Shown: positions 18,179 through 64,000 of the stretch, piece by piece | How positions within the stretch are numbered: the first letter of the stretch is position 1 | How the letters are laid out: each line of letters opens with the position of its first letter | Assembly (NCBI GenBank): GCA_951799445.1 | Contig: OX637292.1 | Location: 13,767,296 to 13,831,295 of the forward strand | DNA length: 64,000 bases | Source: Pseudisothecium myosuroides | Taxonomy: Eukaryota; Streptophyta; Bryopsida; Hypnales; Lembophyllaceae | Direction of reading: 5' to 3' | Notes under the pieces: generated by a model | Databases searched by the model: none | What the model was told of the DNA's origin: nothing | The model's input: only the letters and a program-made list of their open reading frames with translations | Made by a program: the position numbers and the translations under genes

Positions 18179-18812
18179 TATCGGCGGCCAGCCAACATAT
18201 TTAGCAAATTGATACTGGAATCAGACCAAACATTTCAGAAAGTGACCTGGCAAGCAATAATTTCACACCCAATTGCATAATACACAAGTCGTGACAGCTC
18301 GCCAACACAACTGCAGACATAGAATTTCGTGGCTGAAAATAATACAATCGATTAATTATTTTCATAAGTGAAATGTACAAGCCAGAGCCACTATCGATGC
18401 CCTACGTACATGAAGTTCTGAAGATCAAAGTATCGGATGGCATCCGACAACGGAACTTACTGAACCCTAAATCCTAATCCTAAAACCCTAAACCCTAAAC
18501 CTTCAAAACCCCAAAAGGCCGTTAGCATATCGGCCGCTGGCTAATAACTAATCCGTCGACAGAGAAGTAGTTGCCAGCAGACAACTACTTCGTGCTTCCT
18601 CGGTATGACACTACATGTCTGGTAATAGTTGGTACCAAAACACAGTCAACTAAGGTATCGGCAGGTAGTCGACATACAAGAAATGTATCGGCCGGTATCC
18701 GATACACAAGTAATGTATCGGCCGGTAGCCGACACACACGTAATATATTGGCTGCTAGCCGACACACGTGATATATCGGCTGGCAAACGACAACCACTGC
18801 TTACTTGCCGGC
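18179..18812. repeat. Left subterminal palindrome cluster of copy A
   Basis: Imperfect copies of the palindrome lie at about 18179, 18431, 18527, 18657, 18687, 18717, 18748 and 18774, the last five about 30 bp apart. The copy at 18431 reads TATCGGATGGCATCCGACA: both arms changed together, so symmetry is kept. No gene here; it is the 3' side of the leftward gene. Confidence 0.7.
18462..18503. repeat. Interstitial telomere-like repeat
   Basis: Several contiguous copies of AACCCTAA, the complement of the plant TTTAGGG unit, some degenerate, lying inside copy A close to its left end. Confidence 0.7.
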
Positions 18813-21655
18813 TTAATCTTCTCCACCGTCATCAATATCTGGATCGACCATGGCGCCAGCAGCTTCCAAGTTTTCCAAAGCTGCAGTAACTGAAGGTTCA
18901 GGAATTAAATGAGTCCCTGGAGGTCCTTTCTTTGCATGAGAAGGCATTCGGTGGGAGAACAAGACAATCTTTACATGGACCATTTGGGGAAGGTTTTGTT
19001 CCTTCTGCCATCTACGGGTCCAACACTCCCTTGCAACGACGGCCTTGCTCTCTTTCTTGCCTCTCATTGGCGTCCACCATTCCACCTTGAATTTCCCATA
19101 AGTTGGGCCTTGGGTTAGGTCAACACATTCCAGCACTCGTCCAAGCCAAACTGGAAGGTAACTGCGTCTATAGGGTCGACAAAGAACGAAGTCCCCAAGC
19201 AATACGTCTCTATACGGATTGAAGCATAGCTTTGGTTTGTCCTTAGCAGGACCACAATATGGAATGGGTTCCGCTTCATCCTCTGGTGTGATGTCTTCCG
19301 GATTATGAGGATCTGGTCCATTATCAACAAAGACTGGAACATGATCTTCTTTCCAGTCTGAGAGTGTCCAGAATCCCTCTTGAAGTTCTGAAGGTGTAGT
19401 GGACAGCGGAGAATGAATCTCTGCAAGGATTCGCGCCTAGTACGCCACAACTCCGGCCATTTCATCGGCGTACCTTCTGTTTCGTGCCATTCCAGACTTC
19501 CAGTGTTCGATATACTTGGCAATTCCATGTTTGATGAAGCTCTGTTTCTCAATACATTCGCCAGCCCTTGCCACTTCCTTCTCGACGTTCAACTTCTTTG
19601 CATTGACCTCAACGTTTCCCCACAAGGCCTTAAAAGGAACTGGCTTAGGTACGCCAGTTGGAATCTTGGGCTTGCCTTCAGCATCTGCCCTCCACATCTT
19701 CACCGGATTTCCTAGAGGTAGCCATGATGAATCAGTTGCTCTCTTCTTATATCTCATGACCGGCCATCCTTGATCTGGACCATCCTCTTCAACGTAAAAT
19801 TTGAAGAGATGCTTATCCCCCAATCCGATAATTTTGTTGACTCCATCGTGGTGAAAGTCCTTGACATATGATTTGAAATCAGCAACCTCTTGGACAAACT
19901 CTGGAATGAAGGCCACTGTCTTCTGAGAGTCCATGAATGCCTTCATGAGATCAACAAGGACATAGGTGTTCTTCCTCTTAATTAGTTTAGATAAGTAACT
20001 GAAGTGCGCGTCTATATCCTCGTGGGTATGACCCACAATGAGAAAGCCAACTGTCACTTCCTTAAAGATTCGTCTTGCAGTCAGTAATGAACAAAAGGCC
20101 ATAACAAATCTGTTCTTGTTGTCCTTCGCTGAGTTATCAAGCTGCAAGTAGAGCTTCTTCGGAAGCGAAATACTTGGTCCTCTAGGTCGAGGAAGGGGTC
20201 TAGTGACTTCTGTGGTCGATACGTTAGTTGCATGTCGGCTGCTAGCCGATACATTAGTACAGGCCTCTGTGGCCAACGGTATCGAAGATGTGCATCTCGA
20301 TTTCCCGTGGAGTAAAGCCTCGAAGAAATCGTTCTGAGGTGGAGTTGTAAATAACTGTTTGGACTCATGTGAGCTCCCAATTTGTCACTTGGGACTCGTA
20401 GAATTATTTTTTTGGAAATTTGCAATTTAAAGTTGATAAAAGTATACAAAAACCCATAAAAAGAGTGTAGAACCAAAATAGGGTTGTGTCATATCCATTA
20501 TAGTATTTGGTCTAGATTTGTGTTTTTACTTAGAATCCCCCAAACCTTGCCTAAAAATAGTATAGAAATAACGAATTGGCTAGATTTGGAGGATTTGGGT
20601 CACATAGCCCCGAAAGGGCTAATTTCCACCATGAATGTGGCGATTCATGGCTAGGTTGGTCCGAGGGACCCACAGCGAGGCCATTACGTCAGGTCCTAGA
20701 GTTAGATTTAGAATTCCCCATTAGATCGACAAATTCCCAAAGTCCCGATTGTTAGCATGCAGGAGCCACTTACGTAAGACCGGGCCCGTGGAGGAATCTA
20801 CAGCCCAAGGATGGCGTTCTAGGGTAAATTCCATGCCAGGAATTCAACAGTGAAATCGGTTTGCCAAGATTCCTCTACCTGCAGAAGATTCCCGCACCGT
20901 CGCTAATTCGAGGAGATGGCCAGTTTTAATCTCCATTGACCAATCGTGCCAGGTACAAAAACACACCCTCACGTCTTTCATGCGACTCCCTGAGAGGTCA
21001 CGTGAAAAATCCCGGCATCTTCCGACTCGCAAAAGAACCTTCTCCGGGTGGTCAACCCTCCTAACCTCCAACGGGAATTTCATGGAAATTACCCAGGTTA
21101 CAATAAAATCTCACTAAAAATTAGACTAGCTTGTTTTATGTTAAATAATGCGCTCCGTGAAGTTTCACGACATTCCGATAGCGGCAAGTACCCAAACCGG
21201 CAAGATTCCTCGGGAATTAACCACGTGGCGGGTCCCCGCCACGTTGACCGGCATCCCGGGACCATACGATGGCAAAACGAAGTCAACCAAAAGTCCTTCC
21301 CAACTTTCTCGCACCTACCGGAGACCCTAGGCTATTCACATTTCTCAAAATAGGAGACCCCCAAGATCTAGGATTTTACCATGATTTGGTTTTTAAACTA
21401 AATTAGCCTACGATGGGTTTTTGGCCTCGGTAGGGGGGGTAGGCAAGTGTAGGACTAAACACGGCGATCTAGATCCAACGGCGCAATCCGTTTGGCGATT
21501 GGAGCTAATCTCCAAAAGTTAGGATGTTGGTCCAGCATAGATGGTAGAAGTAGATTTTTAGGATGTAGGATGAAAATCTTTGAGGATGAGGATGAAAATC
21601 CTCGTTGATAAGGTTACCTTAGAACTTTAGAGGGAGGGGTGAGCCCTTGGAAACC

Positions 21656-21664
21656 TATATAAGG
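21656..21664 (+). promoter_or_regulatory. TATA-like box inside the solo LTR
   Basis: TATATAAGG in a locally GC-rich context, followed by a CT-rich stretch at about 21,672-21,683. It would be the LTR promoter if the insert is a solo LTR in plus orientation. Confidence 0.4.
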
Positions 21665-22099
21665 GCCCCATTTCTCTCTCTAGAACACCTCCAATACTTG
21701 TTTTTGGGTCCGTGGGTCCAAGTTATTTTGGATATTTTGGCGTTTGAAGCCAAAAACCTCTACAGTGTTTTCGGAGCACTTTTGGCTCCATTGTTGCTAG
21801 ATTTCGAGCTTTGAAGGTCCTTGGGGGTCCTTCTACCTCGCTTAGTATACTCTTGAGTGAAGTTTTGGTACCTTGTTGTAAGTAGAGAGCCTTTCTCTCC
21901 TTCTTGTGTTGTTTTGTGAAGTTAACGTGTGAGGTTTAAGAGTCCTTTTTGGGGTCTTACACTAATCCTAAAGTCACCCCCCACCGTACCTTGGCGATGC
22001 CCCTTTGGGGGGCCTTTAGCATGTAAGCTTTGTGTTGTCAAGTGATCTTAACTCGTGTGTTCTCTCCTTGTGTTGTTTCCTACATCCCTTGCTAACCCT

Positions 22100-22590
22100 C
22101 TCCTTGTTGAGTGGACCCCCTTGGGGAATGGCGAAGCTTTGGCTTTGTCACGTATCTTCTTTAAGTGTGTCTCCTCCTACCTTCTTCTAAAGTCTTCCTT
22201 TTTGTGTGGACCCCCCTGGGGAACGGCAAAGCTTTGACTTTGTCCCTAGGCTAGTCCTATAGCGTGTGTTAAAACAAGTCCTAGACGGCGAAGCTTTGAG
22301 CCCATGAAGCATCACCAGTCCTAAAGTTGGTGTTAAATCCAACCTTACGGCGGAGCTTTAAACCCCCATCGCTCTTAGTTCCAAAGTCTAGTTTCCAAGA
22401 TCTTCTTGGAAAGGTCCAAAGTTTAGCTTCCAAGACATTAGTATTAGCATGGGATAGGTATTGTGCGTTCAAAGTTTGGGCAAGACGAACACCTACACCC
22501 GGAATTTTATCCTAGAGTCTAGTAGTTTAAAAAATCTCGGACCTCACCCCTCCGAACGGCAAAGCTCTGGCTCTGGCCCTAACCTTCAAG
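22100..22590. repeat. Degenerate repeats with GGCGAAGCTTT core in the LTR
   Basis: The phrase CCCCYTGGGGAAYGGCRAAG followed by CTTTGRCTTTGTC occurs at about 22,110 and 22,207, with shorter related copies near 22,283, 22,350 and 22,555. Confidence 0.5.
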
Positions 22591-22669
22591 AAATTCCAAT
22601 TTTTATTCTTTGTGTGGGTTCCCCTAAGGGAACCCGGAGGTGGATTTAAGAATTTGGACCAAGCTAGTA

Positions 22670-22770
22670 GTACCAGCCATATACACAGCAGCTGTACCGG
22701 CGTGGCCCCAAGCAACAGTACCAGCCATACACAGCAGCTGTACCGGTCGTGGCCCCCAGCAACAGTACCG
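22670..22770. repeat. About 48-bp tandem duplication in the LTR
   Basis: Two near-identical units start AGTACCAGCCATA and contain CACAGCAGCTGTACCGG, followed by the beginning of a third unit. Confidence 0.7.
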
Positions 22771-25700
22771 GCCGCGACCCTAGCCAAGGCTGGCACCCGC
22801 CCAGCCGGCACCTTGCCTGGCCCTCCTCGCTGGTCCTTCGTGACTGAACTTTTCTTCGTGACTGAACTTCTCTCACATACATACATGGCTGGAAATCAGT
22901 CCACACCGGGATGATACCCTGCGGGGTCCCAACTTTCCCCTTTTTTTTGTGATTTTTGACAAATCAGGACCTAGTCCAGAAATCAAGTTACAAAGGTATT
23001 TTAGAAATTCAGACATAGAGCTAGTTTAGGAGCCCAGTTAGGAAGCTAGTTCATAAATCAAGCTATAAAGGTAGTTTAAAAAATTAGACGTAAGGCTAGT
23101 TTAGAAATCAAGTTTTGAAGCTAGATTAGAGTCCAGATTACAAGCCAGTATACACTCAGTTGGGAACCAAAGGGTCACAAATCCAACTTGTAATTGGAAA
23201 AAGGGAGGGGGAAGAAAAGAAGAGTCAACGCCTCTAAATCACACCTGCACACAACCTTGCATATTCCACTCTAACCAACCAAACACGTACACAACTATGG
23301 AGGGAGATTAGAGAAGAAGAGAGGAAGTAAGGAACCAAGGGAGGGAGACGATAAATAGTGACCTAGCCCTAGGAGTAGGTAGGTCTAAGGAGGAAATCTC
23401 AAAGAGCCCCTTGTGACCATTGGAAGAAGGATTAGGATGACACAAAGCCAAATTGTGTAAGAAGATAGTTGGCATCTTAAAAACCTCCTTGGAGTTTGAG
23501 ACCATAGTGTAAGACTCATAAAAGCTTAGGTGGAATAGTACTAGTGTAGAAGGAGAGAAGGAGAAAGAAAAGAAGGGAGGAGAGGAAAGAAGGAATTTAG
23601 ATCATCAAAAATTGTAATATTTTTTCTAAATAAGCGGTGAACTCGGAAAAAATCCAAAACAAAACCAAAGACTACAATGGAGCGTGAGGATGTATACGTG
23701 GACGTGGACGAAGTTATTTCCGAAACCGGTAGTGAAGAGGTGAGTTTTTGATTTAATCTTTGATGTTTTTCCCTAATTAGCATTTATTTTCCTAATCAGC
23801 CTTTAAAGCGTGATTAGCATCCGAGATTAGTGCAAATTAGGAGTTTAGATTCAAAAAGTTATAGATTAGAGATAGAGGTCTCCAAAAACATATTACACTT
23901 AGGATTTGGCTTTAAATCGACCGCGTTAGGCTAAGTTAAGCGGTAGGGGGAAGGACGGAGGAACTTTGAGTAAAATTCATCCAAAAAGAGTCATGGACGG
24001 AACTTAGGGGTTTAAATTAGAAAGAGGATTTAGGATTAAAATTAAGGATTAATTAGCGGTTAGAATTAGAATCAGTTTACATTTTTATTTCTTAAAGTTA
24101 AAATTCTAAGGTCAAAATCTAGAGTTAACTTTGGGAAGTTAAAAAATAGAATTAATTTGGAAGTGTAACTTAGGGGGTTAAAATTCCCAGTGAAACCTTA
24201 GGGTAGTTAGAAAAGGAAGTTAGGGTTAACTAGGAGTAAAAAATCCGAGTAAGGAGTAGAAATTAAAAGTAAAAACTTTACACTAAAAGTAGGGGGTAGA
24301 AATTACGAGTAGAAATAGGAGTTAAATCTTGAAGTTAGAAATTCGAAATTAAAGTGAATATTAGAGGCCAAAAGCTAGAGTAAAATTTAGAAGTAAAACT
24401 TGAAGTAACATTTAGAGTTAATCTAGGATTAAAAGGATAGGATTAAATTGGGAAGTAGAAAGTCAAAAGCCTAAAGTCAAAAGTTAAGATTAAATTTAAA
24501 GGTTAAACTTTAGAGTCAATGGGGAAGTAAAAAGTTAGAGTAAAAAGCTAAAGTGAAAAGTGAAAAGTTATAGTAGATTTAGAGGGTAAATCTTAGAGTT
24601 AGTTGGAAGTAGAAAAATCTAGAGTCAAAGTGAAAACGTAGAGTCAAACCTAGAGGATAAAATGGGGGATTAATTGTAGAAGTAAAAATTTAGAGTTAAA
24701 AGTCAAAAACCTAGAATTTTACGTAGAAGGTAAATTTAGAATAAAAATAGGGAAGTGAAAACTTGACGTTAAAGTTAAAACATAGAGTTGACTTTAGAAG
24801 GTAAATTTTAGAGTTAGGTTAGGAGTAAAAACTTGGAGTCAAAAGTCAAAACAAAGTCAAACGGTAGCATTAAATTTTGAAGTTAAATTCTCTAATTAGT
24901 TTGGGAGCTAAAAACCTAGAGTACACTTAGAAGTTAAAAGTTAGAATAAGAGTTAAAACTTTAGGGATAGCTTTTAAAAGTATAACTTCTAGGTGGAGTT
25001 CAAAAACCCAAGATAGTCTTAGAGGTTCATGGAAGGAACATAGGGGTTCCCCTTTTTAGGTAGTTAGGGACGTTAGAAATGACGCCAACTACCCAGTCTA
25101 CCCTCGACATAGGATAGATAGTTAGGGAGTTAGAATTTTACCATTACCCCTGAGCATTGCAGTTACCTTGTGAGTTACTACATGCATTCTAATTATTCGT
25201 TGCCATCCACGACACTTAAGAAACGTTAGCAAAAAAGATCCATTACTTGGAAGGCACAGTGGACCGCGCTCACATCACCCCCATATATTAAAAATGTAGA
25301 TAAAGGCATAGAACCTGGTCGGTGTTCACTCTATTACCAAGGGTGGGTAATCTAGCGCCCACAACTCACGAACAGGCGGCTTTTCCAAAGCACGCAAAAC
25401 ACGACACAACGAGGAAATGGTAAAATTCGAGTCCCCCGGCCAAAGTGAAGTCGCGTAATGTGCATACGCTCCATCACCATGACCGTGGGTAAGCATGCCA
25501 GTACAAGATATAGGAATCTGCTCGAGACCACAAGTTGCCTTGGTGATTCTCTGCATTCGAGGGATAGCTGTCTTGGTCGTGTCCATCTTGTCATGAATAA
25601 TACAGAGGAAGTCTGATGGATTCTGAACAGACTGTGCACTCCAGCCACCATAGATATTACGGCAAGCTCTCTGGTAATTGAGGTGGCGATTTCTGTCCTC

Positions 25701-25885
25701 CACTAGTGATTTCCACTCGTCACATCCTCTGGGGTATTTTGCGATAATCTCCACAAGAAAGTCACACTCGGTGCATTTTGAGAAATTACTGCCCACAGCC
25801 TTTACTTTCACATTCCTGAAATGCGATTTTCGAAGCCAACTAATTGCAGATTGCGACACAGATTCAGGTTGCATTTTTCATTAAC

Positions 25886-26260
25886 CTGTTCAAAACAATG
25901 AAATGGAAGCATAAGAACTGGAAATCCAAAATCCATCAGCTTACAACTTACATATGTATCGGCTGGCAGCCGACACAAGCCTTTCAGTATCAGCTTACAA
26001 TTTACATACATATCGGCTGGTAGCCGACACAAGCCGACACAAGTAGTCTATCAGCTACCAGCCGACATAAGTAATCTATCGGCTACCAACTGACATAAGG
26101 AGGCTATCATGTACTAGCCAACACAAGTAGTCTATCATGCACCATTCGACAAAAGTAGTCTATCGGCTACCAGGCGACATAAGTCTACCAGGTAGCAATA
26201 CAACAAAGAAGAAAAGATATATCATCAGATATCTCATAGAAATGGATTGAAGATTCTTAC
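25886..26260 (-). repeat. Palindrome-bearing intron of the copy A transposase-like gene
   Basis: Between donor GTAAGA and acceptor GAACAG there are seven or eight copies, intact to degenerate, of the element palindrome (best at about 25,959 and 26,011), about 30-50 bp apart. The intron at the same position in copy B (57898-58113) holds two good copies. Confidence 0.75.
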
Positions 26261-28327
26261 GTAATTGACTTCATCCCGCATGTGATCCGAATTCATGGCT
26301 GACGGAAGAACCATCAAATTGTCCACATGCTTATGACCAATGACTCTAAACTCATTTGGCATCTTATCACAATTCTCGCTGATGATTGTTGTTAGAGTTG
26401 CTTGGGCTTGAACTGTTTGTGGACATGGTCGACGAGTCCCGGCGTTTCCGTGCGTCCCACTAATGCAACCTTCCAGTGCAGCGGTCTTGTAGAGGTAATA
26501 AGCTGACCGTGAAACTCCATGAATAATGTACCATGCATTCTCGCATACGTCACGGTTAGCAACGGTAATGTATTTCCTGCCAGGACGAGCAACCGCATGT
26601 AGTTCACTTTGAACACTGTAAGCCGTTTCTCTTCTCTGCTGAAAAGTGCTTGCGTAGTACCTGTGGCGGAGATTCCTTGTGGCTTCCCAAGGAAAACGCT
26701 GACAACAGCTTTCTTTGCAGCACTTCTGAGAACTGACCTTTCGAACTTCTACCTCCAATGTCTTCTTCTTTAACTTGGATTTACACATGCAATCTCTAGG
26801 AAGAACTCTATGACGGACCGATCAGTAGGCATTCTTCGGAACCCCAGCGATGCCTCCATCATCTGAGTCCTCTAACTCCGCAGCCTCAGAACATAGGGTG
26901 ACAATTTCTGAGAGGAGTCGACCACCTTCTAATCTTGCGTGTGTTAATCTCCAACGCATGGTTGTCATCTGGAGTGTCTCATGCTCCGACACAAACAATA
27001 CACCCACGTCTGTGTCACCAAGGACATCCTCGTCGCATGCTTCGTCCGGGAGGCAGACCTGGATCATCCCGATTCCGAATAGGGATAAATCATCACTAAG
27101 TAGTTCACAATACTTGTTTCTCCACAGTGGCTGGTCCGGCCAAGGAAGGCCAGGTCCAAATCCTGTACTGTTGCTCTTGCCACTTTGAGCAGCACCTGAA
27201 GGAGTACCACCATCGCCTTCATCAACGAATTTCGTGCGACCTTCAATGCTACCAGCCGATGGAGGTCTAACATCGCGAGTATCAACGCTGACGGTACAAT
27301 TATCATTAATGTTTGGCATTTGATCACCAAAATCCACGTCCTCATCTTCCGAACAGTAAACCCGATCAATTCGGTCGTCTTCATCAGAAGCATAGGCAAA
27401 GTTGTCCTGGGGTCTGCCTTCTTGAGCCCCAACTTGGACATCGCTTGAGCTCTCGCTGCTAGCGAGATGCTCACCGTCGACTGTGTCACTGGACTTCTTC
27501 TCTTCGGGTTCCAGTTTGATCTGCTTCAGTGTCGGCAGTGTCGGCTGTCGGCAGTGTCGGCTGTTGGCCGATAGAATGAGCACAAGAGATAGCAGAATCG
27601 AGGGGTCTCACTTTGTACCCACTCCAGAGGATTAGGTATCCAATACATTGTCTTAGGGTTGTGAAATGCGGAATTTGACAATATGCGATATGATCTAAGA
27701 AATCGTGATTGACCTTCTGCAATTTCACAACGACAAAGAAACTGTGTGGGATCTGGAAGCCTTCCCATAATCCTTTCGGGGAGTACTCAACTATCTCACC
27801 GATTCCCACACATCGAAGGTTTGGACCATCACCATGCAAGAGAGCAACATCCATGCTGACAGTAAAAGTAAGGAACTCTTAAATCAGCTTTTCGTCAAGA
27901 AGAACCTCTGACGGCTGTCGATAGACATCTGAAGCATTCGTCTTCTCCAATTCCACATATGGTTTAACATATATCGTTCTTCCCAAATGATGGTCCGACC
28001 TTCGCATTGACGAAGTTACTTTAAGTCACCCTCAGGGAAGGGAATGCACATATCGATATTCTGTGCTGCATCAAGCACTTGCACATACAGAAGACAAGGC
28101 TCCCTAGAGGCCACTTTCTCAATTACTGCTCGTCCTGCGTAGTAGAGGCCATCCAGTGTGAGAGCCACCTCCACGCCCTTCCTCAAAGTCCATCTTCCAG
28201 AGCTCCCATTCTTTGTAAAAGATGTGATTGGTTCGGTATCCAATACCATGTCCAGTGGTCTTTTCATCTCTTGGTCGCTACAGGATTTCTAGTGCAGGTA
28301 ATGACTCCGGTCCAACACTAGACGGGA

Positions 28328-28565
28328 TTGTATCGGCCGGCGGCCGACACAAAGAATGAAACCTATCAAATGGTGGCCAACCCAGGAGGTGTATTCTATT
28401 GGCTTGGGGCCGAAACAAAGAGGCTATGTTCTATCGGCTGGCGGCCGACACAAGAGGTTGTTTCTATCGGCTGGCGGCCGACACAGGAGGATTGTTCTAT
28501 CGGCTGGCGGACGGCACGGGAGGTTTGTTCTATCGGCTGGCGGCCGATATAGGAGGTTTGTCTGT
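28328..28565. repeat. Tandem array of palindromes, period about 36 bp
   Basis: About six units, each containing TATCGGCTGGCGGCCGACA or a close variant followed by AGGAGG. It lies just upstream of the leftward gene's likely start codon. The array is open in several frames only because the unit lacks stops. Confidence 0.75.
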
Positions 28566-28589
28566 TGCCTTGTACGGATTAGTAAAAAG

Positions 28590-29696
28590 TAAATCTTAAA
28601 AGTAGAAAAGTATAATTTAAAGTTTAAAAGTCGAAAAGTATATCCGAATTTCTATAGTTTAGAGGTTGTATGAAATGAAGCAACCACAGAGAAGATCAAA
28701 AGTTGCACGATGTGAAGCAACAAGAGAGAAGATCAGAAGTTGCACAAAATGAAGCAACAACAGAGAAGATCAGAAGTTGCACGAAATGAAGCAACATGTT
28801 GGAAGCACAGAGAAGCACAACATGAAATTTATTAACTTCAAACTTCAAACCATGTCCACAACACACTTGCGCTCTTCCTGATCTGAAAGCGTACCTAAGT
28901 CCTTCCTGAGCTCTCAAGCTCTATCTCAAATTTCCTTAGTCCAGAACCACTTAACACAGTAGCGTTTGACTCAATGCACAAATAAATCAAAACAGAAATC
29001 TTGGGACGCTAATCCTGAGCATGACGCCTCACAGAACACTCCTTCAAGCGCTTATCTCTCTCTCAATTTCACAACGCAGAACTCTTAACAGTTATCACAC
29101 TCATTGTTGCGACCTAAAGCACTCTTGAACGTGATCTTGGAGCCTTGCAAATTCCCTTGAAACGTGATCCTCAGCCTCACAGAATCACTCGCAAAACTCA
29201 CACTCGCAAAACTCGCTCGCTCCAGAATCACTCGCAAAACTCACTCACACACTCGCAAAAGTCACAGCGCTCCAGCCTCACGAAATCACTTGCAATCCTG
29301 AGCTCCAAGAATCGCGTCAACAAGAGAAGAGAAAATGATCTCAAACTAGAAGAGACTGGCTGTCTTCCCCCAAATTTGGGCGGCTGTCCGAATTTGAATT
29401 GGAAATGATAACAAGTAGTGGGGATTTTCAAATTCAAAATGCAGTTACGAGAGGTAGTGGGCCGAGATTTTGAATTCAGTCACCAATTGCGACAGGTAGT
29501 GGGGAATCATCTCGCCGAATTCACATAAAAGGACACTCATCACGGGAGTCTGTACAATTCCATTTCGGCTACTTGAATGAATAATGGAAGGTTTTCGTTA
29601 AAAATTGAACTGGATGGATGAACAATCAAGTAGATGAATGAAAAATCAACCGCGGGTGGATGGAAAATCTTGAGTACTGAGCTTGATTTGACGGCC
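28590..29696. other. Upstream DNA of copy A without palindromes
   Basis: No gene recognised. It contains three tandem copies of an about 42-bp unit at 28,676-28,800 (phrase GAGAAGATCAGAAGTTGCAC) and a short CTCGCAAAACTCA repeat at about 29,185-29,265. The matching interval in copy B is far shorter, so this may be a later insertion or expansion. Confidence 0.5.
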
Positions 29697-29830
29697 GGAG
29701 GGAGGGGGGTATACCCCCCTGAGCTGCACGCTCACAACCTCATTTTTATTTTCTCTCCCGGCAGCTCTCATCTCTCTCCTTCCTCTCCTCTATCTCTCCT
29801 TCTTCTCCTCTCTCCCTCGACTCTTTCCAT
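29697..29830. promoter_or_regulatory. Putative divergent promoter of copy A
   Basis: GGAGGGGGGTATACCCCCCT forms a perfect GTATAC-centred palindrome between the two divergent units, followed on the plus side by a CT-rich tract (TCTCTCCTTC type). The same arrangement is at 60414-60545 in copy B, although most surrounding non-coding DNA has diverged. Confidence 0.55.
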
Positions 29831-29916
29831 GTGAGCTCTAGAGGCGGTGCGTGAGCTATGGAGTTGCAGCCGGTACAATTAGGGTTGTAGACTTGTAGTT
29901 ACAATTAGGGAATGCA

Positions 29917-30140
29917 TCAGCCAATACATTAGTATGCATCAGCCGATAGAAAGTAAGTTCATCCGCCGATAGAAATGCACCAGCCGATACACTAGTGCGC
30001 ATGAGCCGATACATTTTTCTTTGATCCGCCGATAGAAATGCATCAGCCGATACATTTCTTGTTCATCCGCGGACACTTGGGCATCAGCCGATACTGAAGC
30101 GACATCAACCGATACAATTGTCGGTTGCTCGCCGATACTG
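29917..30140 (+). repeat. Half-site cluster in the leader of the plus gene, copy A
   Basis: About ten copies of CAGCCGATA, half of the element palindrome, mostly preceded by GCAT or TTCATC, lie just upstream of the exon 1 start codon at 30222. Full palindromes are not seen here. Copy B has a half-site cluster in the same position. Confidence 0.65.
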
Positions 30141-30319
30141 GAGCGCATGGAGACCCCACTGGAGCGAGGAGACGATATTGGAGCAAGAGCAGACGATACT
30201 AGACCGACAGTGGAACGAGCAATGGAGAGTGAAGGCAGCCAGGAACAAAGGTACGTCTCAATTTCCAACTTCGACCTTACATTTCTATAGACATTCATTC
30301 ACCGCACAATACATTAGTT

Positions 30320-31270
30320 GTATATCGGATGCTAGCCGATACAGTAGTTGTGGACCCTATAGCCGCCCTAAACACTAGATTGCTAGCCAACAATGTAGTT
30401 GTAAACCCTAAAGCTGCCTATAAGAATTATTGCGTATCGACTGCATCGTTCCATATCGGCTGGCAGCCAGTACAATATTTATGCGCGGGCTGCTTGCCAT
30501 AACGTTAGTTCCGTATCGGTTGGCAGCCGATACATTAGTAGCTTATCGGCTGACAGCCAATACATTATTCTTGAGCGGGCTGCTTGCAATGACGTTAGTT
30601 CCGTATCAGTTGACAGCCGATACATTATTCTTGAGCGGGCTGCTTGCCATAACGTTAGTTCCGTATCGGCTGGCAGCCAATACATTAGTAGCGTATCGGT
30701 TGACAACCAATACATTATTCTTGAGCGGGCTACTTGCCATAACGTTAGTTCCGTATCGGCTGCCAACCAATACATTAGTAGCGTATCGGCTAACAGCCGA
30801 TACATTATTCTTGAGCGGACTGCTTGCCATAACGTTAGTTCTGTATCGGCTGGCAGCCGATACACTAGTAGCGTATCGGCTGGCAGCCAATGCATTAGTA
30901 ACATATAGGTTGACAACCGATACATTGCTCTTGAGCAGGCTGCTTGCAATAGCGTTAGTTCTGTATCGGCTGCCAGCCGATACATCAAGGTCGCATTCTC
31001 TGATAGCCGATTTAGTAGTTGCATATTGGCTGGCAGCCGATACATTAGTAGCGTATCGGCTGGCAGCCGATACATTATTCTTGAGCGGGCTGCTTGCCAT
31101 AGCGTTAGTTCTCTATTGGCTGCCAGCCGATACATCAGGGTCTCATTCTCTGATAGCCGGTACACTAGTTGCATATCGGCGGGCAGCCGATACATTAGTA
31201 GCGTATCGGCTACTAACCGATATCCTAGATGTGTATCAGCTGTCGACCAATGTGGTTGTAGTGTATTAGC
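30320..31270. repeat. Expanded palindrome array in intron 1, copy A
   Basis: About 25 copies of the palindrome and its variants, joined by recurring spacers such as CATTATTCTTGAGCGGGCTG and CATAACGTTAGTTC, in a higher-order pattern. Most copies keep the arms CGGCTG and CAGCCG; some are changed symmetrically to GGTTG-A-CAACC. Long open frames on both strands (about 280 and 238 codons) are a by-product of the repeat. Confidence 0.85.
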
Positions 31271-34200: not shown

Positions 34201-34727
34201 TACCGGAATTCAGAAACCCTTGGATCCGACCCATTTTCCCATCGATGGTGAAGTCGATTGGAACCATGAAATGTGCGGAGTCAGCCATGGTCTACTCGAG
34301 CGGATTTTGAGGCCGAGTATGAAGGCTTACTTAGCAACTATTATAAACATTTGGGGTGGTGGAAATATTACGGAGATAGCTCTGGTATGCCGTCTTACCA
34401 TTATTGTATCTCCCTTATCGGCTGCTGGCCGATAGAATTCGAATTGATCATCTCGTGTCGGCTGCCAGCCGATACATTCATTAATTACTTTCTTGTTCTT
34501 GTGTCAAAGGCTGGCAGATAGAATTATTACTGACTGTTTATTGATTTTATGTTTTTGTGTAGCGAATTGGGAGACCTGTATTGGAGTTTGTGCGTGAAGT
34601 GGACCATGTTGCTGTTGCTCAAAATCGCATCAAGGGATTAAACCTTACTATCAGTTCCGACATCTTGGCGGCATCCAACCTCCCCTCCAATGTTGAACCT
34701 ACAGTCCCTCCTGCATCCGGGTCGTAG

Positions 34728-37340: not shown

Positions 37341-37346
37341 TGTTCA

Positions 37347-53817: not shown

Positions 53818-53821
53818 TTAA

Positions 53822-54460: not shown

Positions 54461-54464
54461 TTAA

Positions 54465-54956: not shown

Positions 54957-54981
54957 AACCCATATTTAACTAATTATGGAC
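54957..54981. repeat. Left terminal inverted repeat of copy B
   Basis: AACCCATATTTAAC, then TAATTATGGAC. Compared with copy A only two of the first 14 bases differ. The left flank is TATA; the matching right flank is outside the window. Confidence 0.7.
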
Positions 54982-55881
54982 AAATGCGCGAATTATGGAC
55001 AATTTTTTCACTTAGCCTCCACTGCAGAGTAGAAAAACATGCTTGAAATGATGGAAAAGTATCGGCTGCCCTCCCACACATTGTGAAAATGTACATTTGG
55101 TAAGTCATAAAATGTTGCCATGAAGGAAACTTTGTTTTCCAAATGGAAAAGGAAGTAGTGGAGTTGCTTATTTGCAGTGGTTTTCGTGTGTGGTCAGAAG
55201 GTATGCCTATAACCGCGCCCCTGAAATGAAGAAAACTCCCAGTACAATTCCCATAATCCAAATCCATGTCAGCCTCAAACAACATGTAGTCTCAGCCTGG
55301 TGAAATGTATCGGCCGGCAGCCAACAAATGAGTAGACTAATGTGCCTAGCGAGAATAAAACAGAGCAGAGAACATGAGTGAGAGCTGAGCAATCCGGTTG
55401 AGTAGCGCACTAAAGAGCATTATTTGTAAAACTGTCCTTAGGTGAACTTCATATAAACTGATAATAGAATTCCACAAGTTCGTCGCCATTCCATTACGAA
55501 ATGATGTGTCATCCACCAAGCAGGAGTACCAAAAACGTTTTAGAGATTGCTGTACAGACCTACATTCCATGTGTTGGCCGATAGTCGATACATATGGTAA
55601 CCATTAAACGCCCAGCCTGAACTAACTTCAGACATATAGTTACTCCCTTCCTGACCCCAAACGAGAGTACAAAATGTGGACGTTCCTGGCTTTACCATTG
55701 ATTGAAATCATCTTGTGGATAGAACAGTGCGCTTCGGCAGCAGCAAAGAGTGTTGTATCGGCTGGCAGCCGACACCTGCATCCGCGTACGAGAATCCCTG
55801 AGCGGAATGTCCTTGTAAATCCTCCGTAATCCGAATTCCGACTATCGGCTGGCAGCCGACCGATCCGATACCGTAGCAGCG
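54982..55881. other. Left subterminal region of copy B
   Basis: 3' flank of the transposase-like gene. Palindromes at about 55,060 (degenerate), 55,308, 55,570 (degenerate), 55,754 and 55,842. No gene seen. Confidence 0.6.
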
Positions 55882-58800
55882 CTAATCATGTCTTTGTTCG
55901 TCTGCATCTGTGTCCAATGTTGCTCCCGCGGCCTCTAGATTTGCAAGTGCAGCAGCCACGGATGCCTCCGGGATGACATGAGAGTTGGGAGGTCCATTCT
56001 TTGCATGCGAGGGCATTCTGTGCGAGTACAAGACCATGCTGACATGTACTATCTGTGGAAGAGTGAGTTCCTTGTGCCATCTCCTTGTCCAGCATTCCCT
56101 TGCCACCAGCGCCTTTCCTTCCCTCTTCGCCTTCATTGGAGTCCACCACTCTATTGTGAAGTTCCCATACGATGTCCCTGGAGTCCTGTTGACACATTCC
56201 AGTACCCGTCCCAACCAAACCGGCACGTAATTGTTTTGACATGGTCTACAGAGCACAAAGTCTCCTAGCAAAACATCCCTGAATGGATTGAATGTCAGTC
56301 TGGGTCTGTCTTTGGCTGGTCCGCAGTATAGAGTATTCTCTGGTTCGTCCTCCGGAGTGGTGTCCAGTGAATGATATGCTTCTGTCCCCTCCCCCGTAAA
56401 AGCGTCTCCGTGATCTCTTGTCCAGTCTGAGAGCGGCCACAATCCTTCTCGAAGCTCTGCTTGATTTTGTGGCATGACTGAATTGATTTCCTTGTAAATT
56501 TTTTCCCAGTAAGCCACACACCCCACCATTTCCTGTGCATATCGCTTGTTTCTGGCCATTCCCAATTTCCAGAATTCAATGTACTTTGCGATTCCATTTT
56601 TGATGAATGTTTGTTTCTCCCTGCATTCGCTCGCCCTTGCGACTTCTTTCTCTGCATTCCGCCTTTCTGTATTAATCTCCACGTTCCCCCAGAGTGCCTT
56701 GTAGGGCACTGGTCTAGGATCCCCCTGCGGTATTTTTGGTCTCCCATTTTCGTCCGCTGTCCACATTTTGACTGGAGGCCCCGGAGGCAGCCACGACGAA
56801 TCCGTTGCCCTTTTCTTGTACCTCATGACCGGCCATCCCCGATCATCTCCATCTTCGACTACATAGAATTTGAATATGTGTTTATCTCCGAGTCCGATGA
56901 TCTTGTTTACGCCCTCATGATGGAATCCTCTGAGGTATTCCTTGAAGTCTGCGACCTCTTGCACGACCTCCGGGACGAATGCCACCGTCTTCTGCGAGTC
57001 CATGAACGCCTTCATGAGATCTGCTAGTACATACGTGTTCTTCTTTTTGATGAGTTTCGATAGATAACTGAAGTGCGCATCAATGTCTTCGTGCGTATGC
57101 CCGACAATTAGAAATCCGACTGTAACTTCCTTAAATATGCGCCTCGCGGTGAGTAATGAGCAGAAAGCCATGAGGAACCCATTTTTGTTGTCCTTTGCTG
57201 AGTTGTCCAGTTGCAAGAAGAGCTTCCTCGGTAGTGGAATATGAGGCCGCCCTGATGTTTGAATGTTATTAACCTTCTCTTGTGCCTGCGGAATGGATGA
57301 GTTGCACCTGGATTTTCCATGCATCAGAGCCTCAAAGAAGCTATTCTGCGGTGGTGATTTGAAGAGCACCTTCGACTCCCGCACAGGTGGTGCTTCTAGC
57401 GCCCTAAGTACCCTACAGAGCGACGAAATTGTGAAATTTGAGTCCCCCGGCCAGAGCGAGGTTGAATAATGCGCATATGCGCCATCTCCATGGCCATGTG
57501 TGAGCATGCCCGTGCAAGATATTGGCAATTGCCCTAGCCCCGCGGTGGCCTTTGTGACGCGCATCATCCTTGGAATCGCTGTCTTCTTGGTGTCCATTTT
57601 ATCATGAATGATGCACAGGAACTCTGATGGATTTCTGACTGACTGCGCGGTCCATCCTCCATAGACATTTCTACATGCCCTTTGGTAGTTGAGATGTCTC
57701 TCTCTGTCGTCGACTAGCGCCTGCCACTCATCACAGCCCCTAGGATACTTTGCAATACACTCTACGAGGAAGTCACATTCTGTGCATTTTGAGAAATTGC
57801 TTCCCACCGCCTTGACCTCTACATTTTTGAAATGTGTTTTCCGAAGGCGGCTGATCGCGGACTGCGAGACTGGCTCCAAATTGCATACCCTATTGACCTG
57901 AAGGACATCATTTGGCAAATGAGGTTGCGCAATAAGGTTGAGCATTTGTATCGGCCGGCAGCCGACAGAGATGCAGAACCCTGACTGAGGAAAGCAGAGA
58001 AGTATGCCTAAAGCGCCTGCCAATGTGCTTCCATTCCATAAGTACATGGTATCGGCTGGCAGCCGACAAACAGTAGTATGTAATGTCTAAATAGAAGAAG
58101 ATGATGAACTTACTGAGTTTACTTGTTCGCGCATGTGATCCCACGTCATTGCCGAGGGCACGACCTTGAGACTGTCTACGCGCTTATTCCCAACTAGCCT
58201 GAATTCGTTTGGCATCTGATCTGCATTCTCATTGATGATTGTCATGAGAGTTGCTTGGGCTTGAATAGTTTTCGGACGTGGTCTTGTGGACCTCGCATTC
58301 CCATGCGATCCGCTGACCGATCCTCCTGCGGCCGCCGCCTTGTAAACATGGTATGCCGACCTTGAGACCCCGTGAATGATACACCAAGCGTTTTCGCATA
58401 CGTCTCTATTTGCAAGAGTAATGACTTTTTTACCTGGAACGATCCCCGGATGTATTTGAGTGTGCACCGCATATGCCATTTCCCTCCTTGTCTCGAATGT
58501 GGCTGCGAAGAACTTCCTTCGTATATTTTTTGTTTCCTCCCAAGGAAACGTCTGGCAGCATCTGAGATTGCAGCACTTTTGCGAGCTGACCGCACGTATC
58601 TCCAACTCCGAGGTCTTGAGCTGCAATTTGGATTTTCCACCGCGATCCTTGTGAGTGACTTTCCTGCGCACCGACCGGTAGGGATTTCTGGGCACCCCCT
58701 GACATCCGTTGTCATCCGGCTCCTCCAGCAGAGCAGCCTCTGAGCAGAGCGTGACCATCTCCGAGAGTAGCCTTCCCCCCTCTAATCTAGCGTGTGTTAT

Positions 58801-60048
58801 CTTCCACCGCATGGATGTCATTTGCAGTTCCTCATTTTCCGAGACCAACATGACCCCTACCTCTGAATCACTGAGAACGCGATCGTCGCAGGCTTCCTCC
58901 GGTAGGCAGACTTGTATCATTGCTCTTCCGAAGACTGAGAAATCGTCATTGAGAAGTTGGCAGTATTTATTCCTCCAAAGAGGTCTGTCCATGATGGGTA
59001 GCCCCGACTGCACGCCGTCCGAGTTCGCGTTGGATTCTCCACTACCTCCATGACCCCTAAAGTCGACCGCCTGAACAGAGCAGTCATTGCCGCTACTCGG
59101 ATAGCTGCCATCTACAGAGGTACTATAACCATGACCATTGTGAATTCCATGAGCAGATCCGCAGCATTGCCCGTCCGATGAGTAGAGCCTATCCTCTCGA
59201 TCGTCTTCATCCGATGCAGTGGCAGGAATCTGTTCATCGATCGAGTCCCCGAATTCCACGACTACATCGTTTGAGCTACCTCCACTCTCCGGGCTCCTAT
59301 CTAGCTGTGAGTGGATGAGATAGTCTCCTGTAATATCTGTCGGCTGGCAGCCGACATTCACGGTCGATGAACTAGGTGCCACGACCGGCCTCACCTTGTA
59401 TCCACTCCATAGAATTCTAAATCCCACACAGCGGTTCAGTGTCATGAATTCTGGAATCTCGCAGTAGGCATTTTGATCCTCGAACTCCTCGAGGACATGC
59501 AGAAGCTTGACGACGACGAAGAAGCTGTGTGGTACGCGGAAGCCATTCCAATATCCCTTCGGTGAGCATTCTACAATGGATCCCACACCAGCATACTGCA
59601 GGTCATTACCGACCATCATCAGAAGTACAACCTCCATATTGACAGAGAGTGACAGGAATTGCTGTATGGGTTTCCCGTCCGTGTTTCCATGTGTCGGCTG
59701 GCAGCCGACACCAACGGAAGATGACCCTTCCGACTCCGCATAAGGATAAATATTTTTTGCCTCCCATACAATCGACCTTCCTGCGCATTGCCGGAGGAAG
59801 TGCAAGTCTGCCTCCGGAAACGGAATGGGCATGTCGAGGTTCGATGGAACATCTATCACCCGAACGCAAACGAGGCATGGATCCTGCTGCACCACCTTCT
59901 CTACGACCGCCCTACCTGCGTAATATAGTCCTTCCAGTGTCAGCGCGACGACTGCTCCCTTCCGAATCTTCAACCTCCCAGAGCCTCCATTTCTTGTGAA
60001 TGCTTCAATTACAGTGGTATCCAGCCCCGGCTCATCAGATGATGTCAT
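55882..60048 (-). CDS. DUF7869-type transposase-like protein, 1316 aa (intact)
   Basis: Two exons, 60048-58114 and 57897-55882, joined in phase across a 216-bp intron (donor GTAAGT, acceptor CTTCAG). The start chosen is MTSSDEPG; an in-frame upstream ATG at 60177 would read through a palindrome. Residues 1-450 hold two diverged repeats (LYYAGRAVVEK and LQYAGVGSIVE) and a third domain, WRNKYCQLL onward. Next come a Cys-rich segment QKCCNLRCC and ANRDVCENAWCIIHGVSRSA, as in DUF7869 proteins. The second exon has IIHDKMD, LQLDNSAKDNKN and GHTHEDID, whose acidic residues are good candidates for a DDE/RNase H-type triad. The C-terminus (VPVWLGRVLE, EWWTP) looks like a small barrel. Three palindromes fall in coding frame as GCQPT. 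Transposase function is inferred from family, size and position in a TIR element. Confidence 0.8.
57898..58113 (-). repeat. Palindrome-bearing intron of the copy B transposase-like gene
   Basis: Two copies, TATCGGCCGGCAGCCGACA near 57,949 and TATCGGCTGGCAGCCGACA near 58,050, lie about 100 bp apart in an otherwise unrelated 216-bp intron. Confidence 0.8.
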
Positions 60049-60209
60049 GGTACACAATCTGAAATTAAAACCAGCGATGTCGAATCTCCTGTTCAGTTCA
60101 ATCGCGCTTCCCCTTGTCGGCTGGCAGCCGATACAACAATATCCATCACAGTAGACGACCTCATTGATGAGGATCACCTATTTTCTGAACATGAGACTGA
60201 CCTTGAGAT

Positions 60210-60413
60210 TGTGTCGGCTGGCAGCCGACACCTTGGACTGCATGGATATGAGAAGGACCTAAATCGAAACAGCTGAGGACCACTATAGCGGACAATATGA
60301 GCGCTGCAAATGACGATGACGCGTCTCAGACTGGATGAGAAACCATGGACGGATGAAAAAAGTGGATGAAATCGTAATGATTGCGCCTCCCGGCTGGCAG
60401 CCGTCACTTCAGT
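60210..60413. repeat. Upstream palindromes of copy B
   Basis: TGTCGGCTGGCAGCCGACA near 60,212 and an imperfect copy near 60,391, between the leftward start codon and the divergent promoter. Confidence 0.7.
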
Positions 60414-60545
60414 AGGGAGGGGGGTATACTCCCCTGATCACTTTCATTTCAGCTCATTTCTAACTCTCCACGCTCAGGATCAGTCTCTCTCTCTCTCTCG
60501 CGCTCTCTCACTCATGCTCTCGCTCTCTCTCGTTGTCTCTCCCAC
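60414..60545. promoter_or_regulatory. Putative divergent promoter of copy B
   Basis: GGGAGGGGGGTATACTCCCC followed by TGATCA and then a (TC)n tract at 60,481-60,545. It is the counterpart of 29697-29830 in copy A and lies between the divergent units. Confidence 0.55.
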
Positions 60546-60631
60546 AGTCTCCTTGTTTTCTGGTCCCACGGCTTGCAGCCGACACTCCTCGGGTCATATA
60601 GTATCCGCTCCCCCGCCGCCGCATTTTTTAG

Positions 60632-60767
60632 GTCAGCCGCTCCGCAGATTAGGTCAGCCGATATCAGATCTAGGGCAGCCGATACAATTGGAGGCAGTAG
60701 TGAGCAGACGACCTCACCAGCCGACAGGAGACGCAGAGCAGCCGACACGACTTCCCTGATCCAGAAG
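60632..60767 (+). repeat. Half-site cluster in the leader of the plus gene, copy B
   Basis: Five or more CAGCCG half-sites (three followed by ATA or ACA) immediately upstream of the exon 1 ATG, as in copy A. Confidence 0.6.
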
Positions 60768-63700
60768 ATGGCAACTGCCGATGCAGTCAGTGACAGGTAC
60801 CATTCAATCCCTGTATCGGCTGGCAGCCGATACAGTTTCCCCTTCCATGTTTTCCATGTTTGTATACGTTCGTTCATTGCACGAATTCTGTGTCGGCTGC
60901 CAGCCGACAGCATCAGCGCCTCCACTTTTTGTAGTCTGAATACATTATCGGCAGGCATTCAATATAGTTCATTTTGTTGTCATGAATTACCGGAACTTGT
61001 ATCGGCTGGCAGCCGATACATTGTACCCCCTTACCGTATCGGCTGCCAGCCGATACTATTATGTAGCACGCTGAACTCATGTCTTCTGTGTGCAGGAAAC
61101 CTACCCTGCTCTTAAGACTCCTCGGTGAACAGATTCCGAATTCCGGGATATGTTCCGACGGGATTTCACCACGCGCAACTTGGAAAGCAAGTCCAGCAAT
61201 TGAAGAGTGGGGCCTTTGCTGGAGGGAGTTGACTGACGGGATAGTCGAGATTGCGTGCTCGTACAAGATGAAGGGAAACATGGTCCCGGGCAAGGGGAAG
61301 GTCATGTCCGTTATGGCGGTCGGTGACGCTGTTCATGTCCTCATCTGTCTGCTCCCACTTGCGAATCCGGAAGGGGAAGCGGACTACATCGCGGTGGAGT
61401 TGCCCTTCGACAAATGCACGGAGGAGGTCTGTGGAAATATGGCGATGGCGATGGGCATGACATTCGAGAAGAACCATCCCGTGGATGCTGAGGACCTGGT
61501 GCAGGGATGGTATATTCTCAAAGCAGAAAGGGATGACCGTAATGCGCTTGCCATTCGGGACCTGCAGAAAGGAAAGAAGAAGGTGCCCTCCGCAAGAAAG
61601 AAGCCGTCCAGCACACCGACTGTGGAGGCGGAAACTGCTGTCGTGGAGGCGGGGTCACCGAGCAAACCCAAGAGGAAGGGGAAAGATCCCAAGAAGGCCT
61701 TCAAGATCACACTGGACGAGGCCCTACGTCGTGGGAATCACCTCACCACGAAGACAAAGGACAGCGAGGTGAACGCCATCTACGAGGCGTTGGACAAGGG
61801 GCTGGGGCATGCCTTCCCCTACAAGAAGCAACGTCTTCCGGGGGTCATCCAAGCTGACAGACTCCACATTGCACCAGATGATCTCAAGTACAGGAAGATC
61901 GCGAAGGACCGCCTGAAACAGGTATTGTAGCTCAAGATCTCTTCATTTGAACTGCCTTATATATAATATTCTACTTTTTATTCTATCGGCTGCCAGCCGA
62001 CACTTTGATGTAGGGTTTCTAATTGTCCAGGAAATCGTCATTGTAGGTGACAACGATGTATAAGGGATATGGGTCCATTCGAAAGAAGCCAGAAATCCAT
62101 GGAATTCCATTGAAGCGGAAGCCCTTGGAAACCGACAAAGGAATGGATGCTGTCATGGACAAGTGTCCCCTTGTGGGAGACACCACAACGGTGAACGGTG
62201 TTCCAGTGCCCTGGTGGAAAGCTCCTGATGTGCATTGGTACATCATTGGTGGTCAGCATACCGTTACAGCATGCCTCGAACTCGCCAAGAACTTCCCCGA
62301 TGGCTCGGACGCAAAGAAGGATCTTCTGGAATTTGAAGTCATTCCGGTTTGGGCGGAAGACGCGGACACTCTCGTCAGGGTTTCAAACGCCTTGAACTTG
62401 AACATCGCGGAGAAGGTGGCCAAGGAGACGTTCCGATCTTGTGCGGAAATGGGGAGACCGGCATGGGTGAAGGCGGGATGTCCGGAGCCACATCGCGGGG
62501 GTGGAAAACCGTCAACTGCGTTTGAGGTAGGCACTTCCGCTCAGCGTTCATTCTGATCATCGTATACGTAATGTGTGCACTAGTTCAAGACCTGCTTCTC
62601 AGTCGGCTGCCAGCCGATACAGATTCTCTTACAATTTCATGTTGTGAGTTGTGAGTCGTCTGTGTCTCTCAGCTGCCAGCCGATAGATCAGCCCGAGGTT
62701 CTGAATGTTGAGGACTTGCACTTCCGCAGGCAGCGAAGCTGAAGGTGATGGCGCACTTCGTGGAGGAGAAAGTGTCATCGAAGCTGCCCCTCATCTTCAT
62801 CAAGGAGAACACCTGGGAACTGTGGACGGAGGTGTTCGACGCGTGGGAGAATGGAGAGCTCATTGGAGATGACGGGACTCTTCCGATACAACTCGTCAAT
62901 CGGAAGCCGCTCACGCACATCACAAAGACGGATCTCACGCCGACTCTGGGGCTGCGTGATTCAGACCTCTGCGAACTGGCGGACGAGATTGTGGCCCTTT
63001 GCGTCAGCATCAAGAACACAGCCAAGGCAAGGGGCTCGGGAGTGATCACCCTGTACGACTGGTGCAAGGACAAAAAGCTGGACAGGGTGGTCATGAACGA
63101 GATCATGTGGCTCCGCGAGAAGTTTCCCCTCCCGTGTAAGGATGCGACCTGGGTGCCCTACTCAGACGAGGCATGGCAGAAACTCGCGGACAAGGAGGGG
63201 TACTCTCCGGGTGTCGTCAGAAACGTCTGGAAGGATGTCAAGAAGGTCACGGAGGGGAACACATGGCTGAACGGACGCGTCAACCCCATGAACCCGACCA
63301 CGGATAAGTCCACGGACGGAAAGGCGCCGGGGGTATTCTACACGACATTGACGAAGTACTCCACGGTTGCGGTTCCACAGGAGAACGTCGCAGGGAGTAG
63401 TTCAAACCTCAAGTATGAATGTCGCCTGGGACAGAACATCGACGACGTCCTGGATTCACTTCGGGAAAGCGCGGAGACAGACGGGCTGCAACCTACGGAC
63501 AAGAAGTTCTTTGTGCTCTTCGGGTATGCAAACGACGGGATTCCGTTGGGGATTAATAAGAGCGATTTCCAGGCCATCGCCAGATACGTCGAAATTCCCG
63601 GGGAGGAGGAAGGCCCGAACAACCCAGCACGCGATGGATATATTCCCCTCCCCATGCTCTTCATTGGGGGATCACGCTTCCGAGATTCGGTTGCATTGGC

Positions 63701-64000
63701 GTTGTTATCGTCATCGTCATCGTGGTACTTTCATACGGTCTATTACCAGCCATCTCCGCGGGGAGGCTTTAGGAGAGAAGAGATCGAGCCCAAGCCACTC
63801 GTCACACTCTCTCTCACCTTCCCCAAGCCAGATGACGGAGCGGAGCTATTTGGAGTCTTTAAGAGGATCACCGGGATCAACAAGCAGCTCGACTGGTATC
63901 AAGTGGATGTGGACGGGGAGGTCGACTGGAACGGAGGAATGTGTGGAGTGGGACATGGACTCCTAGAACGCTTGATGAAGCCCACGCTCAAGTCCAAGGA
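60768..64000 (+). CDS. ParB-like domain protein of the giant element, copy B (partial)
   Basis: Exons 60768-60796, 61096-61921, 62047-62526 and 62730 to beyond the window join in phase; at least 708 residues are visible without a stop. Exon 1 gives MATADAVSD and the start is fixed by the 29-nt exon shared with copy A. Exon 2 has an N-terminal domain of unknown type (AVGDAVHVLICLLP) and a basic linker KPKRKGKDPKK. The ParB/sulfiredoxin-like core starts at DRLHIAPDDLKYR, crosses into exon 3 (MYKGYGSIRKKPEI) and reaches HWYIIGGQHTVTA, in the place of the GERR/GxHR box. Helical sequence follows. Exon 4 (WVPYSDEAWQKL, DGEVDWNGGMCGVGHG) matches nothing I recognise except copy A. Bacterial ParB proteins bind CTP and act with palindromic parS sites; catalytic or binding activity here is untested. 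Confidence 0.7.
60797..61095 (+). repeat. Intron 1 of the ParB-like gene, with palindromes
   Basis: Perfect TATCGGCTGGCAGCCGATA at about 60,813 and 61,002, TATCGGCTGCCAGCCGATA at 61,037 and TGTCGGCTGCCAGCCGACA at 60,892, in a 299-bp intron. The copy A intron holds the same motif expanded to about 25 copies. Confidence 0.85.
61922..62046 (+). repeat. Intron 2 of the ParB-like gene, one palindrome
   Basis: A 125-bp intron with TATCGGCTGCCAGCCGACA near 61,984. The copy A intron (32188-32328) also holds palindrome copies. Confidence 0.8.
62527..62729 (+). repeat. Intron 3 of the ParB-like gene, two palindromes
   Basis: A 203-bp intron with GTCGGCTGCCAGCCGATAC near 62,603 and a degenerate copy near 62,671. 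The copy A intron (32800-33011) also holds two or three. Confidence 0.8.

Follow-up and report, generated by a model that had tools for sequence, protein, structure and literature searches.

What is the role of a long palindrome that recurs dozens of times inside transposons of a moss? The question arises from a 64,000-nucleotide stretch of the Pseudisothecium myosuroides genome (contig OX637292.1, C6:13767296-13831295; hereafter the window), in which an earlier note had described an odd-length palindrome repeated throughout one giant element. The recurrence is confirmed, but the window holds two separate elements, A and B, with 16.5 kb of motif-free DNA between them, each carrying a gene for a protein with the DUF7869 domain. 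We propose, with a probability of about 0.55, that the palindromes are binding sites of a protein encoded by the element and would serve family-specific self-recognition, most likely as protection against silencing.

A palindrome found in two elements of the window and in their relatives

The exact 15-mer TCGGCTGSCAGCCGA occurs 20 times in the 24,435 bp of element DNA in the window, and 59 times when up to two mismatches are allowed, compared with means of 0 and 0.05 in 100 dinucleotide shuffles of the same DNA. The 39,565 bp outside the elements (1-18075, an insert at ~20385-25340, and 38405-54940) contain no site, either exact or with up to two mismatches, in agreement with the absence reported in the note for the first 18 kb, the 5-kb insert and 38.4-54.9 kb. 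A single match with up to three mismatches lies outside the elements, in 1-18075, and the insert has none at that threshold. GC content is 28-43% outside the elements and mostly 43-54% within them. Among the perfect odd palindromes with 7-bp arms in element DNA, 23 of 24 are this motif or two close variants. The seven-base arms described before are real, but the true motif is longer, ~19 bp (TRTCGGCTGSCAGCCGAYA, from column counts over the 59 sites), with T at -9 and A at +9 in 57 of 59 sites each, a pyrimidine at +8 in 59 of 59, A or G at -8 in 55 of 59, and a weaker preference further out. Element A holds 41 of the 59 sites (7 exact) and B the other 18 (13 exact) within the window. The sequence around the sites was described as mostly unrelated from site to site, which fits B, but parts of A are tandem arrays with periods of 28 bp (26.0-26.2 kb), 33 bp (28.33-28.56 kb) and 30 bp (30.4-31.3 kb).

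The whole moss genome searched here (387.9 Mb, 222 contigs) contains 689 exact sites, and a reversed control gave 0. The 50 sites listed, all on contig C1, form four clusters (19, 13, 7, and 11 sites), and every one lies within 20 kb of one of four DUF7869 genes, none being found elsewhere among those listed. As far as these 50 of 689 sites go, the motif is confined to elements with this transposase.

Kept positions and changed palindromes in related elements

Related elements were grouped into family 1 (B, C, and F, 98-99.5% alike in aligned blocks), family 2 (D and E, 91-94%), and a third DUF7869 family, X (48-49% alike), for which loci L017, L018, and L019 were taken (28 kb scanned). A more distant locus, L001, is a 4.3-kb contig 33% alike in DUF7869 (CADCWO010000071.1). 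It is labelled a cyanobacterial metagenome-assembled genome, and its DUF7869 transposon-like open reading frame (ORF) is probably eukaryotic contamination.

Element B was compared with E of family 2, the DUF7869 exon 2 of the two being 79% alike. In the three introns compared, flanking sequence is 39-40% alike and the palindromes 79-89%, and every one of the five B sites has an aligned E counterpart. In the 3' block, three of four sites are shared, with palindromes 82% alike and flanks 50%. In the same intron and in upstream regions, A carries motif arrays, so that sites are retained in position but differ in copy number. Only 2 of the 18 B sites fall in coding sequence, which makes up 6602 of 9099 bp (P 9e-8), with 1 of 28 sites in family X (P 1e-6) and 0 of 7 in L001 (P 4e-4); exon limits here and throughout are approximate, as they were set from homology. 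At the exon sites, peptides such as IGGPPI, VGCPPT, and VGRQPT were seen by eye at one or both places in 17 of 18 proteins inspected, out of 23 found, and the 18th begins further down than these sites. Motif-like peptides were also seen by eye where introns seem to be read through (P0141, P0142, P0143, P0121, P0001, and P0008); in P0003 and P0016 a different intron appears to be read through, with no clear motif-like peptide.

The palindrome of family X is a different, even one, TCGTGRGATCYCACGA, and it occupies the same kinds of place as that of family 1. No family-1 site with up to three mismatches was found in the 28 kb of L017-L019, and no family-X site with up to two mismatches was found in B, E, or the window. 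Counted as YCGKGRGATCYCMCGR, a pattern derived from the L017-L019 sequences themselves, the X sites with up to two mismatches number 16 in L018, 12 in L019, and 6 in L017, compared with base-shuffle means of 0.06, 0.04, and 0.02. The 16 sites of L018 comprise seven 3' of the gene, two in an inferred intron, one in exon 1, and six upstream, and the exon-1 site is in frame and encodes SGDPPMD at the position of the family-1 peptide VGCQPT. The gene layout is that of family 1, and the following 8 kb, L019, hold the divergently oriented second gene (25-33% identity to family 1); seven of the L019 sites lie upstream of that gene, five in an inferred intron after the first long ORF, and none inside the ORF. 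Locus L001 has a third palindrome, TTAGCTCGASTCGAGCTAA, in 7 copies at up to four mismatches, all outside the ORF (shuffle maximum 1).

A de novo palindrome finder, run without a shuffle control, ranked the family motif first in B (30 sites), E (27), X (24), and L001 (5), and an X-like palindrome first in L017 (8). The finder also returned AT-rich palindromes in the two motif-free parts of the window (11 and 4 sites), and the 11 in window 1-18000 exceed the counts of L017 and L001. The palindrome of family X is centred on GATC (L018:6774-7243), and every half-site of the three palindromes contains one CpG, features that may bear on methylation. An array of another long palindrome, CAAAAGTTTGGAG-ATCC-CTCCAAACTTTTG, occupies L017:8884-9563, upstream of an X-type DUF7869 gene.

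Genome-wide, there are 1100 exact X palindromes (control 0). The 50 listed, all on C1, include 8 close to an X-type gene and 9 with no other X site nearby, and the four family-1/2 genes have none of the 50 within 20 kb; clusters among the sites listed include those at C1 1.99, 16.95, 18.13, and 43.65 Mb. The isolated X sites, the high copy number, and the tandem arrays in A are what would be expected if the palindrome were a functionless, tiny self-spreading repeat or had been homogenised by gene conversion. Such an origin would not account for the gathering of the listed family-1 sites at four DUF7869 genes, for positions shared between families whose introns are otherwise randomised, or for a different palindrome at the same kinds of place in X, and we consider it improbable.

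Symmetry of the site and its candidate readers

The two arms of the palindrome do not covary. In 108 distinct sites of A, B, and E, a sample limited to sites with up to four mismatches overall, which may mask some covariation, 699 positions match between the arms compared with 698.9 +/- 7.5 after permutation, and 14 arm changes are shared compared with 10.1 (P 0.12). Therefore, two half-sites read by a dimer fit better than a paired stem. Of the two roles suggested in the note, a bound site is the one the sequences support, because positions are kept in randomised introns, the arms do not covary, and a different palindrome stands at the same kinds of place in another family; a structural hairpin is not favoured.

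In our proposal, the transposon would encode a symmetric (dimeric) DNA-binding protein that binds the palindromes. These would label its non-coding regions (promoter region, introns, and 3' flanks) and one or two in-frame linkers in exons. Since each family has its own palindrome, each protein would recognise its own family only. The most likely effect would be to keep the genes of the element active against host silencing, as VANC does for VANDAL. The first candidate reader is the product of the second gene, a protein with a GGQHT motif, because this gene has diverged no more slowly than the DUF7869 exons (identity to X 25-33% for the second gene and 37-48% for the exons; to family 2, 64-74% and 65-79%). 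The N-terminal half of the DUF7869 protein would be an alternative.

Several observations weigh against this proposal, besides the limit of the covariation sample. The promoter blocks of B and E align badly (1059 and 2891 bp long), and only three of eight sites are shared there, the palindromes being 37% alike and the flanks 14%. Two B sites lie within coding sequence, and palindrome-compatible peptides in homologs barely exceed background (0.0246 compared with 0.0207 per residue; 446 matches in 18,148 residues, 32 proteins of 143). Because this back-translation test is too weak to stand alone, the exon-site peptides are only supporting evidence. Between the arms, agreement at the outer purine/pyrimidine bases is below the chance level (37 matches compared with 47.2 +/- 4.4), because mixed sites are oriented with transcription: with promoter sites excluded and repeats that are not independent, TGT..ATA is found on the sense strand 27 times and TAT..ACA 6 times. 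This polarity is not predicted by a strictly symmetric site, and a transcription-linked mutation bias could be its cause. Finally, searches with the second gene returned no known DNA-binding family, and the structure predicted for its product is of low quality (pLDDT, the predicted local distance difference test, of 48).

The same polarity would keep G.U rather than A.C pairs on the sense strand, as expected if the motif acted as an RNA or DNA hairpin (in splicing, as a small RNA, or as a cruciform), and perfect inverted repeats are present in all three introns compared. We nevertheless regard a hairpin as improbable, given that the arms do not covary, that family-X sites at 15928 and 5087 carry T/C and G/A mismatches breaking the pairing on both strands, that a centre of 1 or 0 nucleotides leaves no natural loop, and that some sites lie outside genes as modelled. 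A search of window 18000-64000 against Rfam gave no match.

Genes and coordinates of the elements

DUF7869 is the only transposase-like Pfam match in these elements. The predicted core fold of the L001 DUF7869 protein resembles DDE integrases and Mos1, and a Foldseek search with the DUF7869 model gave no match at E<=0.001. All examples, even the 4.3-kb L001, have the DUF7869 gene, and this, together with the modelled fold, would suit a role of the palindromes in transposition, in which the transposase or an accessory protein would bind them when the ends are assembled, much as TNPA does at the subterminal repeats of CACTA elements. These subterminal motifs, as far as the parts of the source consulted go, likewise differ between families (PMC2613891). 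However, the moss sites occur along the whole element; they cluster in internal promoters and introns and show no concentration at the ends, so that we think a transposition role unlikely.

The closest named relatives of the window DUF7869 protein are in Ceratodon purpureus (70% identity over 59% of the query) and then Physcomitrium patens (66% over 61%). A search of genome contigs returned L001 and two distant DUF7869 loci, L002 and L003, in which a search for repeated palindromes gave none, and the viral contigs searched contained no DUF7869 locus. Full-length DUF7869 matches at 98-100% number 30 in the family of B, and 25 of these contain no stop, which suggests a recent spread. The terminal inverted repeats (TIRs) begin AACCC, and the target-site duplications (TSDs) are all 4 bp (TATA, TCAT, ATAT, TTAA, and GCAG).

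The label "ParB-like" given to the second protein by eye could not be upheld, as no ParB match was found in Pfam (to E 10), NCBIfam (to E 1), or a PDB profile search (to E 10). A third gene in A encodes pieces of an NIF/FCP1-like phosphatase that match PF03031 with E 1.9e-4 (21.6 bits, cutoff 21.8) and 7.9e-7 (29.3 bits); families 1 and 2 also match one or both pieces. Near its left end, at 18468-18510, A has a telomere-like CCCTAAA/CCCTAAACC run.

Table 1 Features of elements A and B, in window positions.
Feature	Position	Strand	Remarks
Element A, decayed copy	18077..38400		TIR AACCCCAATTTAAC.../...GTTAAATTGGGGTT; collinear with B
TSD of A	18073-18076, 38401-38404		GCAG, 4 bp
A, degenerate palindrome cluster, 3' of DUF7869 gene	18656..18794
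A, insert within DUF7869 exon	~20385-25340		~5 kb; long terminal repeat (LTR) element according to the earlier note
A, palindromes and 28-bp-period array, DUF7869 intron	25957..26181
A, 33-bp-period array, directly upstream of DUF7869 gene	28326..28558
A, 30-bp-period palindrome array, upstream of second gene	30454..31222
A, scattered single sites along plus-strand genes	32233..38219		exact sites 34458, 35854, 38203
A, third gene, NIF/FCP1-like phosphatase pieces	35952-36380, 37210-37995	+
Element B	54957..68003 (in window 54957..64000)		13,047 bp, runs beyond window end; TSD TATA
B, palindromes, 3' flank of DUF7869 gene	55756-55774, 55843-55861		weaker sites at 55310, 55062
B, DUF7869 gene, exon 2	55885..57897	-	PF25273 E 5.6e-42; limits approximate
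B, palindromes, DUF7869 intron	57949-57967, 58050-58068		both align with family-2 sites; 87%, flanks 40%
B, DUF7869 gene, exon 1 (N-terminal part)	58110..60042	-	from tblastn and homologs; holds both in-frame palindromes; limits approximate
B, in-frame exonic palindrome, linker site 2	59338..59356		peptide VGCQPT
B, in-frame exonic palindrome, linker site 1	59692..59710		peptide VGCQPT; a family-X palindrome stands at the matching position (SGDPPMD)
B, palindrome cluster, divergent promoter region	60115..61055		exact 60117, 60214, 60816, 60893, 61002, 61039; two-mismatch sites 60390, 60568
B, second gene, exon 1, divergent from DUF7869 gene	61079..61924	+	homologs P0141-P0143; limits approximate
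B, palindrome, intron 1 of second gene	61984..62002		89%, flanks 39%, against family 2
B, second gene, exon 2	62050..62538	+	IIGGQHT motif; "ParB-like" by eye only
B, palindromes, intron 2 of second gene	62601-62619, 62667-62685		79%, flanks 39%, against family 2
B, second gene, exon 3	62735..63998	+	runs beyond window

Comparison with known systems

A literature search found no paper naming DUF7869, and the titles and opening parts of abstracts on mosses, palindromes, and giant transposons contain nothing on the present element. New here are the palindromes kept in randomised introns, the separate code of family X, the third palindrome of L001, and the lack of covariation between arms. The three related DUF7869 elements, each with its own palindrome and two of them sharing one moss genome and a matched gene layout, amount to a natural swap experiment. 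The same kinds of place carry a different code, and therefore the reader protein and the origin of new specificities are directly testable.

In bacterial ParB-parS systems, a DNA-binding protein reads repeated palindromic sites. The moss element shows no detectable homology to them at the sequence level and lacks a recognisable ParB domain. A more speculative extension of our proposal, which we hold only tentatively, is a whole lineage of giant DUF7869 transposons with a switchable palindromic code. In it, the palindrome would change between families, even from odd to even length, at constant kinds of place (promoter region, introns, exon linker, and 3' flank), and the code would be read by a co-diverging GGQHT protein, which would shield the element from silencing and leave its relatives untouched. 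This protein would load at many sites and mark or coat the element, as a eukaryotic counterpart of ParB-parS or of self-methylation.

The giant Sola-1 element of Ectocarpus has an opposite-strand ParB-like/DNA-methyltransferase gene whose product, according to the parts of the source consulted, may bind and modify its own transposon (PMC12477816). The moss element is likewise a giant DNA transposon with a second gene on the strand opposite the transposase. Unlike in Sola-1, for which these parts report no palindromic target, the second gene in moss matches neither ParB nor methyltransferase models. It may be a far relative of the Ectocarpus gene, although sequence searches of Pfam, NCBIfam, and PDB gave no sign of this. 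The TSDs have the 4-bp length of Sola-like elements, but the AWWT type reported for Sola2 does not fit all of them.

The TNPA repeats of CACTA/En-Spm elements, as the consulted parts of the source describe them, resemble the moss palindromes in being a repeated, element-specific, family-variable motif proposed as the target of an element-encoded DNA-binding protein (PMC2613891). Unlike these repeats, the moss sites spread throughout B and are not confined to subterminal regions, and its TIR (AACCC...) and DUF7869 match take the place of the CACTA termini and tnp2 transposase.

Sequence-specific anti-silencing by transposons is best known from VANC in Arabidopsis, and VANDAL is a MuDR-type element. 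The moss element differs in its DUF7869 transposase and 4-bp TSD, in a motif that is a long palindrome and not YAGTATTAY, in a second gene that is not recognisably VANC, and in its host, a moss. According to the parts of these sources consulted, VANC21 binds a 9-bp motif in introns, intergenic regions, and terminal non-coding regions of VANDAL21 (PMC5735166), VANC targets are tandem repeats that differ between related elements (PMC5735166, PMC10398659), and the transposase VANA is much more conserved (PMC5735166). Apart from the proteins themselves, the moss elements share these features: a short motif is concentrated in the non-coding parts of one transposon family, it differs between related families (family 1, X, and L001), tandem arrays vary between relatives, and a further gene stands beside a better-conserved transposase.

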